Assembly: GCA_017303655.1 (NCBI GenBank)
Contig: JAFLCE010000013.1
Span: 1 to 60,225 of the forward strand
Length of the DNA stretch: 60,225 nucleotides
Direction: 5' to 3'
Source of the DNA: Anaerolineae bacterium
GTDB taxonomy: Bacteria > Chloroflexota > Anaerolineae > Anaerolineales > Villigracilaceae
Position numbers and translations under genes: made by a program. Below the pieces are notes generated by a model. That model searched no databases. It saw only the letters and a list, made by a program, of their open reading frames with translations, and was not told the origin of the DNA. This document shows, one piece after another, positions 54,327-60,035 of this stretch (positions are counted from its first letter, which is position 1; the number at the start of each line of letters is the position of its first letter).

Positions 54327-54772
54327 TCGTCCGCGCCCAGCCTCAACACGCAGACGCCCTCACCCAAATTGCCATCGCTGCTAAACGTCATTGGAATTAC
54401 CCCGAAGTATGGATTCAATTTTGGATTCCACAGTTGACAATCTCTGCCGAATATATTTCTTCTAATGAAGTTTGGATGATGGCGGAGAAAGAAAAGCCAA
54501 TGGCTTTCTATGCTTTGAGCCAAAACGAAGGTGATTGGGAATTAGGTCACCTTTGGGTCTTGCCTGAATATATAGGCAAAGGAATTGGTAAACAGCTATA
54601 CAATCACGCACTTGAAAGATGTAAATTTCTCAATATCCATACGTTGAAAATTTATGCAGACCCGAACGCCCAGACCTTTTACGAAAAAATGGGCGCAACC
54701 AAAATTAGTGAGCATCATTCCGACTTGTTTGGTGAAGACCGCGTTTTACCCATCATGGAGATCAAGTTATGA
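54323..54772 (+). CDS. GNAT-family N-acetyltransferase
   Basis: A 149-residue acetyltransferase. The acetyl-CoA loop is LPEYIGKGIGKQLYNHAL (R/Q-x-x-G-x-G/A form) after the LGHLWV strand; the end MGATKISEHHSDLFGEDRVL is usual for the group. The substrate is unknown. Overlaps DinB (ATGA) and Tag. Confidence 0.87.
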   Translation: MIVRAQPQHADALTQIAIAAKRHWNYPEVWIQFWIPQLTISAEYISSNEVWMMAEKEKPMAFYALSQNEGDWELGHLWVLPEYIGKGIGKQLYNHALERCKFLNIHTLKIYADPNAQTFYEKMGATKISEHHSDLFGEDRVLPIMEIKL

Positions 54773-55236
54773 CGACCTACTGCGACTATTGCAATTCTCA
54801 CCCTGAAGATACTTTCAATAAGACCTATCATGACACCCAATATGGCTTTCCTATTGACGATGATAACGAGTTATTCGAGCGGCTCGTGCTTGAGATCAAC
54901 CAGGCTGGGCTATCGTGGATTCTGATCCTGAAGCGCGCGCAGAACTTTCGAAAAGCCTTTCATAAGTTCAACATCAAAAAGGTTGCCAAGTACACCGAAG
55001 CGGATCGTGAAAGACTCATGAGTGATGAAGGCATCATCCGTAATAAATTAAAGGTCAATGCCGCCATCGTCAACGCGCAAAAGATAATCGAATTGCAAAA
55101 AGAATATGGCTCGTTCAAAGGTTGGTTGGATGCACATCATCCGCTCACAAAAGAGGAATGGACCAAGCTGTTCAAGAAGAACTTAACACAATATCCTCCT
55201 CGCTATTCGGTAATTCACATGACACATGCAATTTGA
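54769..55236 (+). pseudogene. tag: DNA-3-methyladenine glycosylase I (Tag-like), 3' end cut by a serine-recombinase element
   Basis: A Tag-family base-excision glycosylase is recognisable to Lys137-Asn138: TTYCDYCNSHPEDTF, YHDTQYGFPIDDDNELFERL, NQAGLSWILILKRAQNF and DEGIIRNKLKVNAAIVNAQK. Intact members continue with an F-x-F-T-G-G-E-I segment and a C-terminal G-A-H-x3-C that supplies two zinc ligands. Here the frame instead reads LTQYPPRYSVIHMTHAI and stops. The change falls at the end of the opposing serine recombinase gene. About 35-50 native residues are lost, with two of four zinc ligands, so activity is doubtful. The residual 138 residues include the catalytic helix region. Confidence 0.85.
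55171..55186. other. probable left attachment junction in tag
   Basis: TTCAAGAAGAACTTAA marks where Tag homology stops on the plus strand (codons for F-K-K-N) and recombinase-element sequence begins. The recombinase stop codon (minus-strand TGA at 55174-55172) lies in the tag-derived part, so its last residues come from the host gene. Confidence 0.6.
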
Positions 55237-56737
55237 TTTGATCGCCAAGGTCATGAAATTGAACTTTTACTTGGAAAAGCTCAAGCAAATCACGCATATC
55301 TTCAAAGGTTGCTGCAGGTAGATTTCCTCGTACATTTGCTGATATTTCCAGAATTCTGTTTTCCAAATTAGGGCTGATTTCCAGCGCAGCCAAATCTTCC
55401 TCAAGTTTTTCTTTTTCCTCAAAAAGAAGTTTTTGTTCAGATTCTAATTGACGTATTTTTTCCTTGATTGCTATCTTTACAGTTTCACCTTCAAAGTCGG
55501 CAAGCTCATCAACCATTCGTTGAATTTTTTCAGACGTGGTATTTAAAATTTTGACTACATACCCATAGCGTTCGCGCTTGGGTTCTAATTCTTCTTCCCT
55601 TTTTTCTGACATATCGTGTACGCCCGCCAACAGTGCCTCTTCATCCATCAATAATGAAGTAAGCCACTTCCAGACTGCCTCATCCGCTTTCCTCATTTTT
55701 ACACTTCGTTTTCGGTGCCAGCAAACGGCAATCTTGTTGTTGTAACTTGCACAACGATAATATGGAACAGCCCCATCCCATTTTCGGAAGCCATACATAG
55801 CCAGTTTGCAGCTTGCACATCGGATGTGCCCTACAAGGAGATATTCATGTTTTCTATTACGCTTCGCAAACTCCTGATTACGCCTTGCCCTCACTTGTGC
55901 AGCATCAAATGTGGCTCTATCCACCAAGGCTAAATGAGGTACATCAATCGGAATCCATTCCTCCTTTGGGCGCGGAACCTGCCTTCCGTCCTTGAGGATT
56001 TGAGTTTTTGCGTAGTAGTTTAGGCCGGCATATGTTTCATTAATCAGGATCATGCGAATTGAATTGGGTTGCCAAACGTTTGAAGACCGGGGTTTGATAC
56101 CCATTTCATCAAGGCGTTTAGCGATTGCCATCAAGGAAAGCGGACCACCGTCCTCATGAGTGGTGTACCAGCGGAAAATCAATTTTACAATTTCGGATTC
56201 GAAGGAATCAATAATCATTTCTGCATCGCGTGATTTTCCAATGCGCCCGTATCCATAGGGGACTTGCCCGGTCATAACAGGTTTTTTATCATCCTTGGCT
56301 TTTTTGAGCCGCCCATTTTTTGTACGGTCAAGTATCTTTAATCTTTCGGTATGGGCAAGCATTGCAAAAATGCCATCTGAGATCATGCCTTGAAGGTCAT
56401 TATGAGATTGTCCGCGATCAACAAAATGAAGTTCAATATTTTTGTCCTGCCATTTACCAATTAATGGAACATAGTCATAATAATTTCTGGAGATTCGGTC
56501 CGAAGTGTAGGCAATTACAACTTGAGCCTCACGATTGGCTAGCATGGACTCAAGTTGGGTAAAACCGGGGCGATCCAGTGTAGCGCCGGATGTGTTGTCC
56601 ACAAACTCACGGATGACGTGAAACCCCAATCTGTTTGCATAAGCACGGCATTCTTCCAATTGGAAAGGCAGGCTATGCCCCTTTTCCGCTTGTTCATCTG
56701 TACTAACTCTGGTGTAAATAACAGCGTATTTTTTCAT
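55172..56737 (-). CDS. large serine recombinase / integrase
   Basis: A 521-residue large serine recombinase. The catalytic domain has the nucleophile Ser12 in YTRVSTDEQAEKG, then YTSDRISRNYYDY. The recombinase domain follows (GQVPYGYGRIG to YAGLNYYAKTQ, about 165-270). A zinc ribbon (HIRCASCKLAMYG with YYRCASYNNK and CWHRKR) lies at about 300-345, and a coiled coil (EEKEKLEEDLAALEI) near 430-465. Such enzymes integrate phages or mobile elements by attP x attB recombination. AAAGGA precedes ATG 56737. Its stop lies inside host tag DNA, consistent with integration there. The intact protein looks active. Confidence 0.92.
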   Translation of the reverse strand: MKKYAVIYTRVSTDEQAEKGHSLPFQLEECRAYANRLGFHVIREFVDNTSGATLDRPGFTQLESMLANREAQVVIAYTSDRISRNYYDYVPLIGKWQDKNIELHFVDRGQSHNDLQGMISDGIFAMLAHTERLKILDRTKNGRLKKAKDDKKPVMTGQVPYGYGRIGKSRDAEMIIDSFESEIVKLIFRWYTTHEDGGPLSLMAIAKRLDEMGIKPRSSNVWQPNSIRMILINETYAGLNYYAKTQILKDGRQVPRPKEEWIPIDVPHLALVDRATFDAAQVRARRNQEFAKRNRKHEYLLVGHIRCASCKLAMYGFRKWDGAVPYYRCASYNNKIAVCWHRKRSVKMRKADEAVWKWLTSLLMDEEALLAGVHDMSEKREEELEPKRERYGYVVKILNTTSEKIQRMVDELADFEGETVKIAIKEKIRQLESEQKLLFEEKEKLEEDLAALEISPNLENRILEISANVRGNLPAATFEDMRDLLELFQVKVQFHDLGDQIKLHVSCELPNSEEDIVLSSS

Positions 56738-57790: not shown

Positions 57791-58435
57791 ATGAACCACA
57801 TCAAGAGGCTATGGGGGCATTACCTGTCGTTACTGATCCTCATTGCCTTCCTCGCTTACCCCATTTACTGGGTCCGCAAATTCTTTCATTCCAAATTCGG
57901 ACCTGAAGCCGCATTGATCGCGCTGACTCTCTCCATGATGATCGTCCTGATCTTTGTGGTCCGCGGAGCCGTGCATACGCATAGACTGGTCCATGACTTG
58001 AAACGGGACATTGAAAAACAAAACGGGAATCAGAGCCCGGACCTGCCCACTTCCCTGATCTTAAAGCTATTCAAGATCGATCCTTCCCCCAGAAAACAAA
58101 CAAACCCGGTTGATGAGAACCCGCAGGAGGGAATTGAATTCCCCAAACTCCTTGACCCTTCCCCCAATCGTCATCGCGGAAAACCGCCGCGCTTCCCCAG
58201 GGAACAAATACGCAAAGCTGTCCTGAAGTGGGAGCGCCGCGATCCATCCATCACCGCATTAACACTTGAACAATTCCTTGCCCAGGAATTTGGCAGCAGC
58301 CCCGACGGCATCCTGCTCATGGCAACCACCGCAGATGAACTGCGGTTTGAAGATTCCGCCGAAGAGGTCGTAGATCAGGTCGGGGTTGGGGAGGTTATTC
58401 ATTGGGACTCCAAACATAACCATCCGCCGTGGTGA
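57791..58435 (+). CDS. hypothetical membrane-anchored protein
   Basis: A 214-residue protein of unknown family. Two TM helices occur near residues 10-29 (YLSLLILIAFLAYPIYW) and 40-60 (ALIALTLSMMIVLIFVV). A Pro/Asn-rich linker leads to a soluble domain (PPRFPREQIRKAVLKWERRD, then TLEQFLAQEFGSSPDGILLM). The longer frame from 57632 adds an unlikely N-terminus. The last 14 codons overlap the 3' end of the opposing GNAT gene by 41 bp, so its end may have been created by a junction. It may be element cargo or host. No Shine-Dalgarno sequence is clear. Confidence 0.55.
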   Translation: MNHIKRLWGHYLSLLILIAFLAYPIYWVRKFFHSKFGPEAALIALTLSMMIVLIFVVRGAVHTHRLVHDLKRDIEKQNGNQSPDLPTSLILKLFKIDPSPRKQTNPVDENPQEGIEFPKLLDPSPNRHRGKPPRFPREQIRKAVLKWERRDPSITALTLEQFLAQEFGSSPDGILLMATTADELRFEDSAEEVVDQVGVGEVIHWDSKHNHPPW

Positions 58436-59198
58436 CGGTTTCAAACCCAAGTTGCTTGTAAATCGGAAAGCCCGATGGCGTGGCGAACAAAATGGATTGC
58501 TTGTGTCCAGCGCGGCGCGCGGACTGCATGGCGGCGAGGGTGAGCGCTTTGCCGAGTCCGTGACCGCGATACCGCGGCAATGTGGTGACGTGGTAAACGC
58601 CTGCGCCGTGTTCCGCATGGAGTAAGGTCGAGATGGCACACGGCTCGCCTTGCCAACGCGCGAGGAAATGCTCGAAGACGGGTTCAGGTTCAGTCAGGGA
58701 GTTGGCGAGGAACTGTTCAAAGTCAACGCGGCTTGGTTCGGGTTCTTCGAAGCCTTCCATGAGGACGTTCAGCCAGTCCGCTCGATCTTGCGCAGATCGG
58801 ACGCGCACGAGTTCCACTTCTTTTGGGAGCGACACTTCGGGCAGGTCGTCCAGTCCGCGCGTCATGCAGGGCATTCCCTTGAAAGTTTCCCAGCGAATGG
58901 TTTTTGAATTCAGGTAATCGCCCAATCCAGGCGTGCCACCATCGGGAAAGTCCGCCCAGAAAAACGGAAGATGTTTCGAGAGGAACGTTTCGAGGATGGG
59001 TTCGGCGAGTCCGCCTAATTTTTCGGGGCGAGTCGCTGTGCGGACAACGCCGTTGAAACGGTACAGACTCCGCCGTCCCGTCGTGAACCAGGCGATCTCG
59101 TCCGTTTCGATAAAGCGACCATCCAACAGGCGGGCGATGCCTTTGTAGTAGGTCAGGGCGTTTTCTTCAATGGCTTGGATGTGCGTCATACGACTCAT
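58395..59198 (-). CDS. GNAT-family acetyltransferase with N-terminal domain
   Basis: A protein of 267 residues. The first 140 form a GNAT-like, degenerate domain (GIARLLDGRFIETDEIAWFT). The C-terminal GNAT domain holds TLPRYRGHGLGKALTLAAM (acetyl-CoA loop) and SGFPIYKQLGFETV. The tandem layout is common among unassigned bacterial acetyltransferases. Start is uncertain: ATG at 59198 has GGAA just upstream; ATG at 59213 or 59189 are possible. It lies downstream of the ArsM-like gene on the same strand. The substrate is unknown. Confidence 0.83.
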   Translation of the reverse strand: MSRMTHIQAIEENALTYYKGIARLLDGRFIETDEIAWFTTGRRSLYRFNGVVRTATRPEKLGGLAEPILETFLSKHLPFFWADFPDGGTPGLGDYLNSKTIRWETFKGMPCMTRGLDDLPEVSLPKEVELVRVRSAQDRADWLNVLMEGFEEPEPSRVDFEQFLANSLTEPEPVFEHFLARWQGEPCAISTLLHAEHGAGVYHVTTLPRYRGHGLGKALTLAAMQSARRAGHKQSILFATPSGFPIYKQLGFETVTTADGYVWSPNE

Positions 59199-59218
59199 TG
59201 TTTCCATAGGCAACGATC

Positions 59219-59266: not shown

Positions 59267-59420
59267 CTATATCAGCTTGCGGGCCTGGAACGTGATGCCA
59301 TGCGTGCCGAAGTCCAATGCGTCCGAGGGATCGGGCGTACTTGTGAACGATCTTGCCGTCTTCAAAACCAGCCGCGCTCACGGCGCGGAGCAACTCTGCA
59401 TCCAGCAGAGCGCCGGCAAT
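59267..59420 (-). pseudogene. C-terminal part of the ArsM-like gene beyond UGA, with a +1 frame change
   Basis: After the UGA, the same frame continues with clear family sequence IAGALLDAELLRAVSAAGFE, then DGKIVHKY. From about 59335 the conserved ending appears instead in the +1 frame (DALDFGTHGITFQARKLI, TAG at 59269-59267). So the gene needs both UGA read-through and a one-base correction to give a full protein. Either the gene is decaying, or UGA is decoded and the frameshift is an assembly error. Confidence 0.75.
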
Positions 59421-59423
59421 TCA
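59394..59423 (-). promoter_or_regulatory. in-frame UGA with SECIS-like hairpin
   Basis: TGA (59423-59421) is followed after 16 nt by CTCTGC-TGGAT-GCAGAG: a six-pair stem (59410-59405 with 59399-59394) and a five-nt loop whose second and third bases are G. The distance and the G in the early loop fit bacterial SECIS elements such as that of fdhF. The UGA stands where ArsM-type proteins have a conserved Cys (W-x-G-C-x-x-G-A). Confidence 0.4.
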
Positions 59424-60035
59424 GCCCGTCCATAGCGAGATGTCATCCAGCGCATCGGATGGCACTTCGCGTTCGACGAGAATATCTCCGACCTGCAATC
59501 GTCCGCCTGGCTTGAGGATGCGGAACCACTCGCGCAGGGTCTCGGTCTTGTCGAGGGTCAGGTTGAGGACGCCGCTGCTAATGACAACGTCCGCGAAGTT
59601 ATCGGGGAGGGGAAGCGACTCGGCGAGTCCTTCGCGGAACTCGACGTTGGACGCGTCCATCGCCTCCGCCCCCGCCCGTGCCTTTTTCAACATCTCCTCG
59701 GTCATGTCCACGCCAACGACGCGTCCCGCCAAACCGACAAGCCGCGAGGCAATCAACGAATCGAAGCCTGCACCCGACCCCACGTCCACGACCGTTTCTC
59801 CAGCGTGGACGTCGCCTACAGAAAACGGATTCCCCGTCCCTGCGAAAGAGGCGATATTCGATTCGGGCAAGTCGGCATAGAGGGACTTGTCATATCCGAG
59901 GATGTCCGCGAGTTTGCGACCCATGTGGAAGTGATACCCTTTGTTCGGGTCGAGGGCGACGTTGGTGTATTCTTTTTGAATCTCCACCCTGAGTTCTTCG
60001 AGCGAAATTTTTGGAAGGTTTTGATGGTGTGTCAT
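59421..60035 (-). CDS. ArsM-like SAM methyltransferase, N-terminal 204 residues up to UGA
   Basis: A class I methyltransferase of the arsenite-methyltransferase (ArsM) group. The start (LEELRVEIQKEYTNVALDPN) leads to GTGNPFSVGDVHAGETVVDV, the SAM site VVDVGSGAGFDSLIASRLVG, GVDMTEEMLKKARAGAE, and LKPGGRLQVGDILVE. Of three ArsM cysteines, the first is Thr (GTGNP), the second Ser-Gly (VISSGVLNL), and the third is the UGA at the end of this ORF (LWTG-UGA-IAGAL). AAAGGAG precedes ATG 60035. It may be a truncated ORF or the main part of a selenoprotein. Arsenite as substrate is doubtful because of the lost cysteines. Confidence 0.75.
   Translation of the reverse strand: MTHHQNLPKISLEELRVEIQKEYTNVALDPNKGYHFHMGRKLADILGYDKSLYADLPESNIASFAGTGNPFSVGDVHAGETVVDVGSGAGFDSLIASRLVGLAGRVVGVDMTEEMLKKARAGAEAMDASNVEFREGLAESLPLPDNFADVVISSGVLNLTLDKTETLREWFRILKPGGRLQVGDILVEREVPSDALDDISLWTG

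Follow-up and report, generated by a model that had tools for sequence, protein, structure and literature searches.

Does the UGA codon that interrupts an ArsM-like methyltransferase gene at the place of a conserved cysteine encode selenocysteine (Sec), or does it end a decaying reading frame? The question is raised by a contig of an Anaerolineae bacterium, the whole 60,225-nt stretch of which is referred to here as the window. Its ORF from 60035 to 59421 on the minus strand, with the contig end 190 nt upstream of the start codon, terminates in TGA at 59423-59421, and reading the frame past this codon yields IAGALLDAELLRAVSAAGFEDGKIVHKY, which relatives match in the same frame. Sequence comparison indicates that the UGA of this family is very probably read as selenocysteine; we regard the family as a selenoprotein family because its UGA column is conserved as UGA or Cys, a hairpin with compensatory changes follows the codon, and the genome contains Sec machinery.

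Table 1. Parts of the methyltransferase gene in the window.
Feature	Position	Strand	Basis
ArsM-like methyltransferase, 204 codons ahead of UGA, ATG at 60035	59424..60035	-	ORF; Pfam methyltransferase matches above, and ArsM-type NCBIfam matches below, their cut-offs
Predicted selenocysteine 205 codon (UGA), aligned with Cys224 of ArsM	59421..59423	-	Of 79 named relatives, 71 with UGA and 8 with Cys; aligned against 5evj and 5eg5
SECIS-type hairpin, 7 pairs (6-pair core 59394-59410), 5-nt loop from 16 nt past UGA	59393..59411	-	
In-frame continuation matching relatives, 27 codons and 1 nt, up to the 17-nt deletion	59339..59420	-	Homology, alignment
Rest of ancestral C-terminal frame, shifted out of frame by the deletion	59267..59338	-	Alignment with L050, L051, L060 and L062

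The UGA column and the Sec machinery

A scan of genome contigs returned 194 relatives, the best 80 of which gave 79 named loci, all inspected. These loci were fetched with the patterns [KR]G[YF]HFH[TM]G and [FM]AGTGNPF, so that the HFH motif and T67, which the patterns contain, are partly preselected among them; position 155 lies outside the patterns. A scan of the class, in which window-type UGA genes occurred in 15 of 396 genomes, added 16 profile hits (L139-L154, one being the window itself) that were found without the fetch patterns, using a profile built from the window clade.

Among the named loci (best 80 of 194 relatives), the Sec column is UGA in 71 of 79 and Cys, encoded by TGC or TGT, in the other eight (L092, L094, L104, L106, L123, L124, L125 and L128); the profile hits have UGA in 15 cases and Cys in one. 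No codon other than UGA or a Cys codon thus occurs at this column in the 79 named loci or the 16 profile hits, the pattern by which a bacterial selenoprotein is recognized. The homologue search proposed by a first-pass annotation of the window therefore bears out its placement of the UGA at a conserved ArsM cysteine, and the 27 codons that match relatives behind the UGA agree with its claim of continuing in-frame homology. Random stops elsewhere in the gene, which it had named as a possible refutation, did not appear: additional internal stops were found in only two of 95 loci (L083, at position 170, and L130, at position 242), while the stops at 260-261 in L104, L123 and L147 are the ends of the proteins. 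A candidate variant with TAG for Sec in G361 was rejected, the Sec column there being TGT and the TAG, at position 260, the end of the protein. In two genomes of the same genus (G018 and G031; 91 and 90% identical) and two of the same order (G039 and G059; 75 and 70%), the frame is full-length and broken by the UGA alone.

Several loci depart from a single intact gene. L058 (G017) is an N-terminal piece alone and L055 (G052) a piece whose match is lost ahead of the Sec site, as if the gene were lost occasionally. Two window-type UGA genes, L096 and L100, lie about 10 kb apart on one contig, and in 12 of 82 loci the main gene is accompanied by members of the cluster around the L101 methyltransferase ORF, which belongs to the window family; extra ArsM-like copies nearby are therefore common.

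The frameshift that the first-pass annotation had counted against its own proposal reflects the absence of 17 nt after nt 82 behind the UGA, between 59339 and 59338, an absence not shared by the four relatives aligned (L050, L051, L060 and L062). The C-terminal codons past this point remain recognizable in another frame; the window frame as it stands has 265 residues, the last ∼32 forming an unrelated tail. The gap is either a recent deletion or an assembly error, and the window allele may therefore be damaged or misassembled, with an uncertain product; the chances that this allele still works are about even.

The genome (4.6 Mb, 172 contigs, 93.55% complete, 5.82% contaminated) contains the Sec genes that the first-pass annotation had advised looking for, with selA, selB and selD over curated cut-offs (SelA, 443 bits; SelB, 343 bits, cut-off 242; SelD, 361 bits, cut-off 125) and a tRNA-Sec gene with anticodon tca (UCA; 68.5 bits, gathering 47), although all sit on other contigs than the window in a genome of which 5.82% is contamination. 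The selD gene carries an in-frame UGA of its own, at CAG-U-ASK. Presence of selA in 14 of the 15 UGA genomes (all except G166) proves little, because it is so common across the class (316 of 396 genomes); it was also found in 50 of 61 relatives.

A SECIS-type hairpin behind the UGA

The core stem, CTCTGC/GCAGAG at 59410-59394, is extended to 59411-59393 by a seventh, G-U pair. It starts at nt 11 after the UGA, and the 5-nt loop UGGAU, with G second, starts after 16 nt; the six-pair stem, the early-loop G and the bacterial SECIS distance described in the first-pass annotation thus stand, except that the 16 nt lead to the loop and not to the stem. A published model for bacterial SECIS elements specifies a stem of 4-16 bp, a loop of 3-9 nt with G within its first two positions, 16-37 nt between UGA and loop, and an energy of at most -7.5 kcal/mol (PMC13188914). 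The window hairpin fits this model with 7 bp, its 5-nt UGGAU loop at the minimum distance of 16 nt, and -10.5 kcal/mol for the seven-pair hairpin alone. The 44-nt stretch folds no better than chance (z = -1.16; 26 of 200 shuffles as good), its minimum-energy fold being a longer, different helix that shares the apical hairpin, and Rfam at gathering scores gave no match across the window. Directly behind the hairpin, at 59372-59388 on the minus strand, lies a second GC-rich inverted repeat, CCGCGC/GCGCGG, identical by eye in the four nearest relatives aligned.

Conservation of the hairpin was surveyed in 85 genes (the 79 named loci, the window and five unnamed non-duplicates), a hairpin being counted as complete when all six stem pairs form and G occupies one of the first two positions of the loop. 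It is present in 64 of 76 UGA genes, versus 0.72 expected when synonymous codons are resampled for the same proteins, and in none of the nine Cys genes. The 12 UGA genes lacking the strict form are L074, L076-L080, L082, L083, L089, L108, L112 and L116; the first eight of these account for eight of the ten rows in one tree clade, and L089 has the full stem without the early G. Codon choice in the stem is locked, with Ala codon 4 being GCT in 62 of 63 genes and Ala codon 8 GCA in 67 of 69, compared with GCC in 58 of 76 at Ala codon 2 and in 44 of 71 at Ala codon 17.

On 70 distinct rows, 96.7% of cells pair, versus 92.6% in shuffles, both-sided changes occur in four of seven pairs (3 of 500 shuffles as high), and the stem has 15 double-change cells against a shuffled mean of 1.6 (0 of 500 as high), in a control that kinship among the rows inflates. 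The tally of additional pair types does not stand out from the shuffles (55 of 500). Structures slid along the alignment pair at 20-45%, one slide also reaching 11 double-change cells, and in L069, L071, L072 and L145 two pairs change jointly with an Ala-to-Ile change in the protein.

Ligands, fold, history and neighbors

In a profile alignment, the predicted Sec205 falls on the cysteine of GECLAGAL, T67 on that of FWGCGNP and G155 on that of ISNC, the last of which we take to be residue 174 of ArsM. In place of the classical ArsM set of Cys at 72, 174 and 224, the window protein thus has T67, G155 and Sec205, in agreement with the earlier observation that the other two cysteines are replaced. 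Gly occupies position 155 throughout, in the 79 named loci and the 16 profile hits alike. At position 67, 94 of the 95 loci have Thr, among them all 16 profile hits, and one has Val; the profile hits were found without the fetch patterns but with a profile itself derived from the window clade. An HFH motif near the N-terminus is present in every named locus (79 of 79, a set partly chosen by this motif) and in every profile hit (16 of 16). Among the 72 UGA members (71 named loci and the window), 39 lack any Cys in the aligned part.

For comparison we aligned 39 other ArsM-like rows, a 40th (L171) being set aside as a Cys member of the window clade. In 37 of the 39, the Sec column is Cys and the second column reads SNC, and 36 of these 37 classical rows have Cys at the T67 column (L156 has Ser). 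Where classical rows were aligned over the N-terminal stretch, it is mostly Cys-rich, in a region where the alignment is loose. L169 and L170 (G273 and G364) form a second Sec lineage, ULGGA with ISNG, and UGA accompanied by NG at the Cys174 column was found in L056 and L057 (G019 and G039; UIAGAK) and in 11 fused-type rows (L182-L192; UEGGA). The Cys174 column is therefore Gly in all four Sec lineages seen (UIAGAL/UIAGGL, ULGGA, UIAGAK and UEGGA), and Cys members within the window clade retain it; that this Gly accompanies Sec in every lineage and persists after a change from Sec to Cys suggests one substrate change away from free arsenite. G019 and G039 each carry a window-type gene in addition to the UIAGAK gene, in the Cys form and the UGA form, respectively.

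A tree of 126 proteins, with a long-branch warning at L169 and L170, groups 76 Sec and nine Cys rows in one clade (support 93/88, short of the tool's star). Within it, the Cys rows fall into two nested clades, one of seven rows and one of two, which we read as two Sec-to-Cys changes; three changes are required over the entire tree. Sec rows are labeled Chloroflexota, Thermodesulfobacteriota, Myxococcota, Fidelibacterota, Acidobacteriota, Gemmatimonadota, Nitrospirota, Actinomycetota, Latescibacterota and Poribacteria, although single labels may be wrong, because nearly all of these rows are metagenome bins; L084 comes from a named strain, Desulfatitalea alkaliphila.

The SAM-site residues D84, G88, D92, M111 and T112 are invariant in 49 rows. 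For a structure model of L061 (49 sequences, mean pLDDT 91.2), the 13 top-ranked PDB matches are all ArsM or AS3MT, and the titles of two of these name the mutants C224A and C72A. None of the ArsM-type NCBIfam models shown reached its curated cut-off for the five subfamily proteins scanned (two partial, and the window protein to residue 231). Arsenite methyltransferase model NF008823, which requires at least 263 bits, scored 215.2 for the window protein to residue 231, 222.5 and 234.9 for full-length L051 and L054, and 219.6 and 229.2 for the partial L084 and L125. The models with a second Sec domain, NF041537, NF041536 and NF047649 (510, 575 and 460 bits), reached at most 241 bits, with full-length L051, and 233.3 with the window protein; the frames of L050-L053 end about 55-60 codons past the UGA.

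An OsmC-like match lies on the same strand, on either side, within about 750 nt in 15 of 79 loci (L061, L069-L073, L089, L092, L094, L096, L101, L102, L104, L128 and L132), a DsrE-like match within 1 kb in seven, and a rhodanese or metallo-beta-lactamase protein within 5 kb in eight; these counts stand without a background rate, the families being Pfam-confirmed for representatives only, and flanks of 700 nt were covered upstream in 71 and downstream in 72 of the 79 loci. Among these named neighbors in the representatives scanned, the only known arsenic gene is one ArsR-type regulator. No OsmC gene lies beside the window gene in the stretch seen, the next gene encoding a GNAT acetyltransferase (58395-59213). 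Elsewhere in the window, two ORFs that we name from sequence alone overlap: one on the minus strand (55172-56737) that resembles a serine recombinase covers the 3′ end of one on the plus strand (54769-55236) that resembles DNA-3-methyladenine glycosylase I, an arrangement suggestive of an element inserted into the latter gene.

Competing readings and known Sec methyltransferases

The view that translation simply ends at the UGA, be it a normal stop codon or a nonsense mutation in an ArsM gene undergoing decay, could draw on the 17-nt deletion of the window copy, the gene pieces in G017 and G052, and the two loci with a further internal stop. We consider it extremely improbable and reject it: UGA occupies the identical column in 71 of 79 named loci, with Cys in the rest, homology continues past it, and hairpin and codon choice are conserved.

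Readings that accept Sec differ over its role. In one, the enzyme is a classical arsenite methyltransferase that uses Sec in the role of Cys224 and receives arsenite bound to glutathione or other thiols. This would accord with the ArsM fold and with the Sec form listed as experimentally verified (PMC13188914), but we judge it unlikely, since position 155 is Gly in 95 of 95 loci and position 67 Thr in 94, versus Cys in 37 of 37 classical rows at the SNC column and 36 of 37 at the T67 column, and the named neighbors of the representatives scanned include no known arsenic gene other than the ArsR-type regulator. The OsmC-like (15 of 79), DsrE-like (seven) and rhodanese or metallo-beta-lactamase (eight) neighbors would instead suit a redox enzyme built on a methyltransferase scaffold and partnered with OsmC-type peroxidases; against this still less probable reading, the SAM-site residues are invariant in the 49 rows, and there is no conserved second Cys to resolve an oxidized Sec, 39 of 72 UGA members having none in the aligned part.

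Under the selenoprotein reading that we prefer, SelB and tRNA-Sec(UCA), together with the hairpin that follows the UGA directly, would have the ribosome place selenocysteine at residue 205 of an ArsM-derived, SAM-dependent methyltransferase. We infer that the selenolate at the place of Cys224, the only conserved chalcogen ligand, would hold a soft substrate for SAM methylation, perhaps a thiol-complexed metalloid or a sulfur or selenium species, although this substrate assignment is doubtful; the conserved HFH, replacing the Cys-rich N-terminus, may provide other ligands. Because of the deletion or assembly error past the Sec codon, the tail of the protein made from the window copy may be altered. 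More broadly, we tentatively propose, as an idea less likely than not, a widespread class of single-domain methyltransferases that depend on Sec and conserve no other chalcogen ligand. Their substrate would no longer be free arsenite but perhaps a sulfur or selenium species or a metalloid that already carries methyl groups, and they would work with OsmC-type partners and a metal site formed by HFH.

A 2026 review that describes most cataloged selenoproteins as thought to be redox enzymes lists in its Table 1 an arsenite methyltransferase with one Sec in UxxG as experimentally verified (NF008823, representative WP_011987699.1, after Fomenko 2007), together with three fused selenoprotein families, after Haft and Tolstoy 2025 (PMC13188914). 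Sec forms of arsM were counted in a 2008 marine survey (PMC2398784), and a Sec arsenite methyltransferase is also listed in PMC9312934; the abstract and term-searched text of the deep-Sep paper (PMC12013277) do not name it. The Sec arsenite methyltransferase as such is thus already known, and the "new selenoprotein variant" of the first-pass annotation holds for the subfamily: no description of one without the other arsenic cysteines was found in the literature searched, although Haft and Tolstoy 2025 could already describe it.

Like the NF008823 selenoprotein, as described there, the window family has a single Sec in U-x-x-G of an ArsM-type methyltransferase, but it scores below that cut-off; WP_011987699.1, compared by description only, could belong to the same clade or keep the other cysteines. 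The best profile match of the window family is NF041537 (AhpD), one of the fused double selenoproteins with NF041536 (DUF2284) and NF047649 (UXPK-star), and L182, which exceeds the NF041537 cut-off, and its kin share the UGA at this column, with ISNG or SNG. Unlike these, the window family lacks a second domain and has one Sec only, in UIAGAL or UIAGGL (rows printed) rather than UEGGA, and its AGTGNP stretch lacks the Cys of the corresponding YCGVGNP. With classical ArsM and AS3MT (PDB 4fr0, 5evj and 8xt7) it shares the fold and the position of Sec at Cys224, but it lacks equivalents of Cys72 and Cys174 and the Cys-rich N-terminus, having HFH instead.

Window-type genes are at risk of being truncated at the UGA in routine annotation. 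In records labeled with many phyla, a methyltransferase family appears to have kept Sec while losing the other arsenic ligands, and its substrate, if found, would reveal the role of Sec in methyl transfer.
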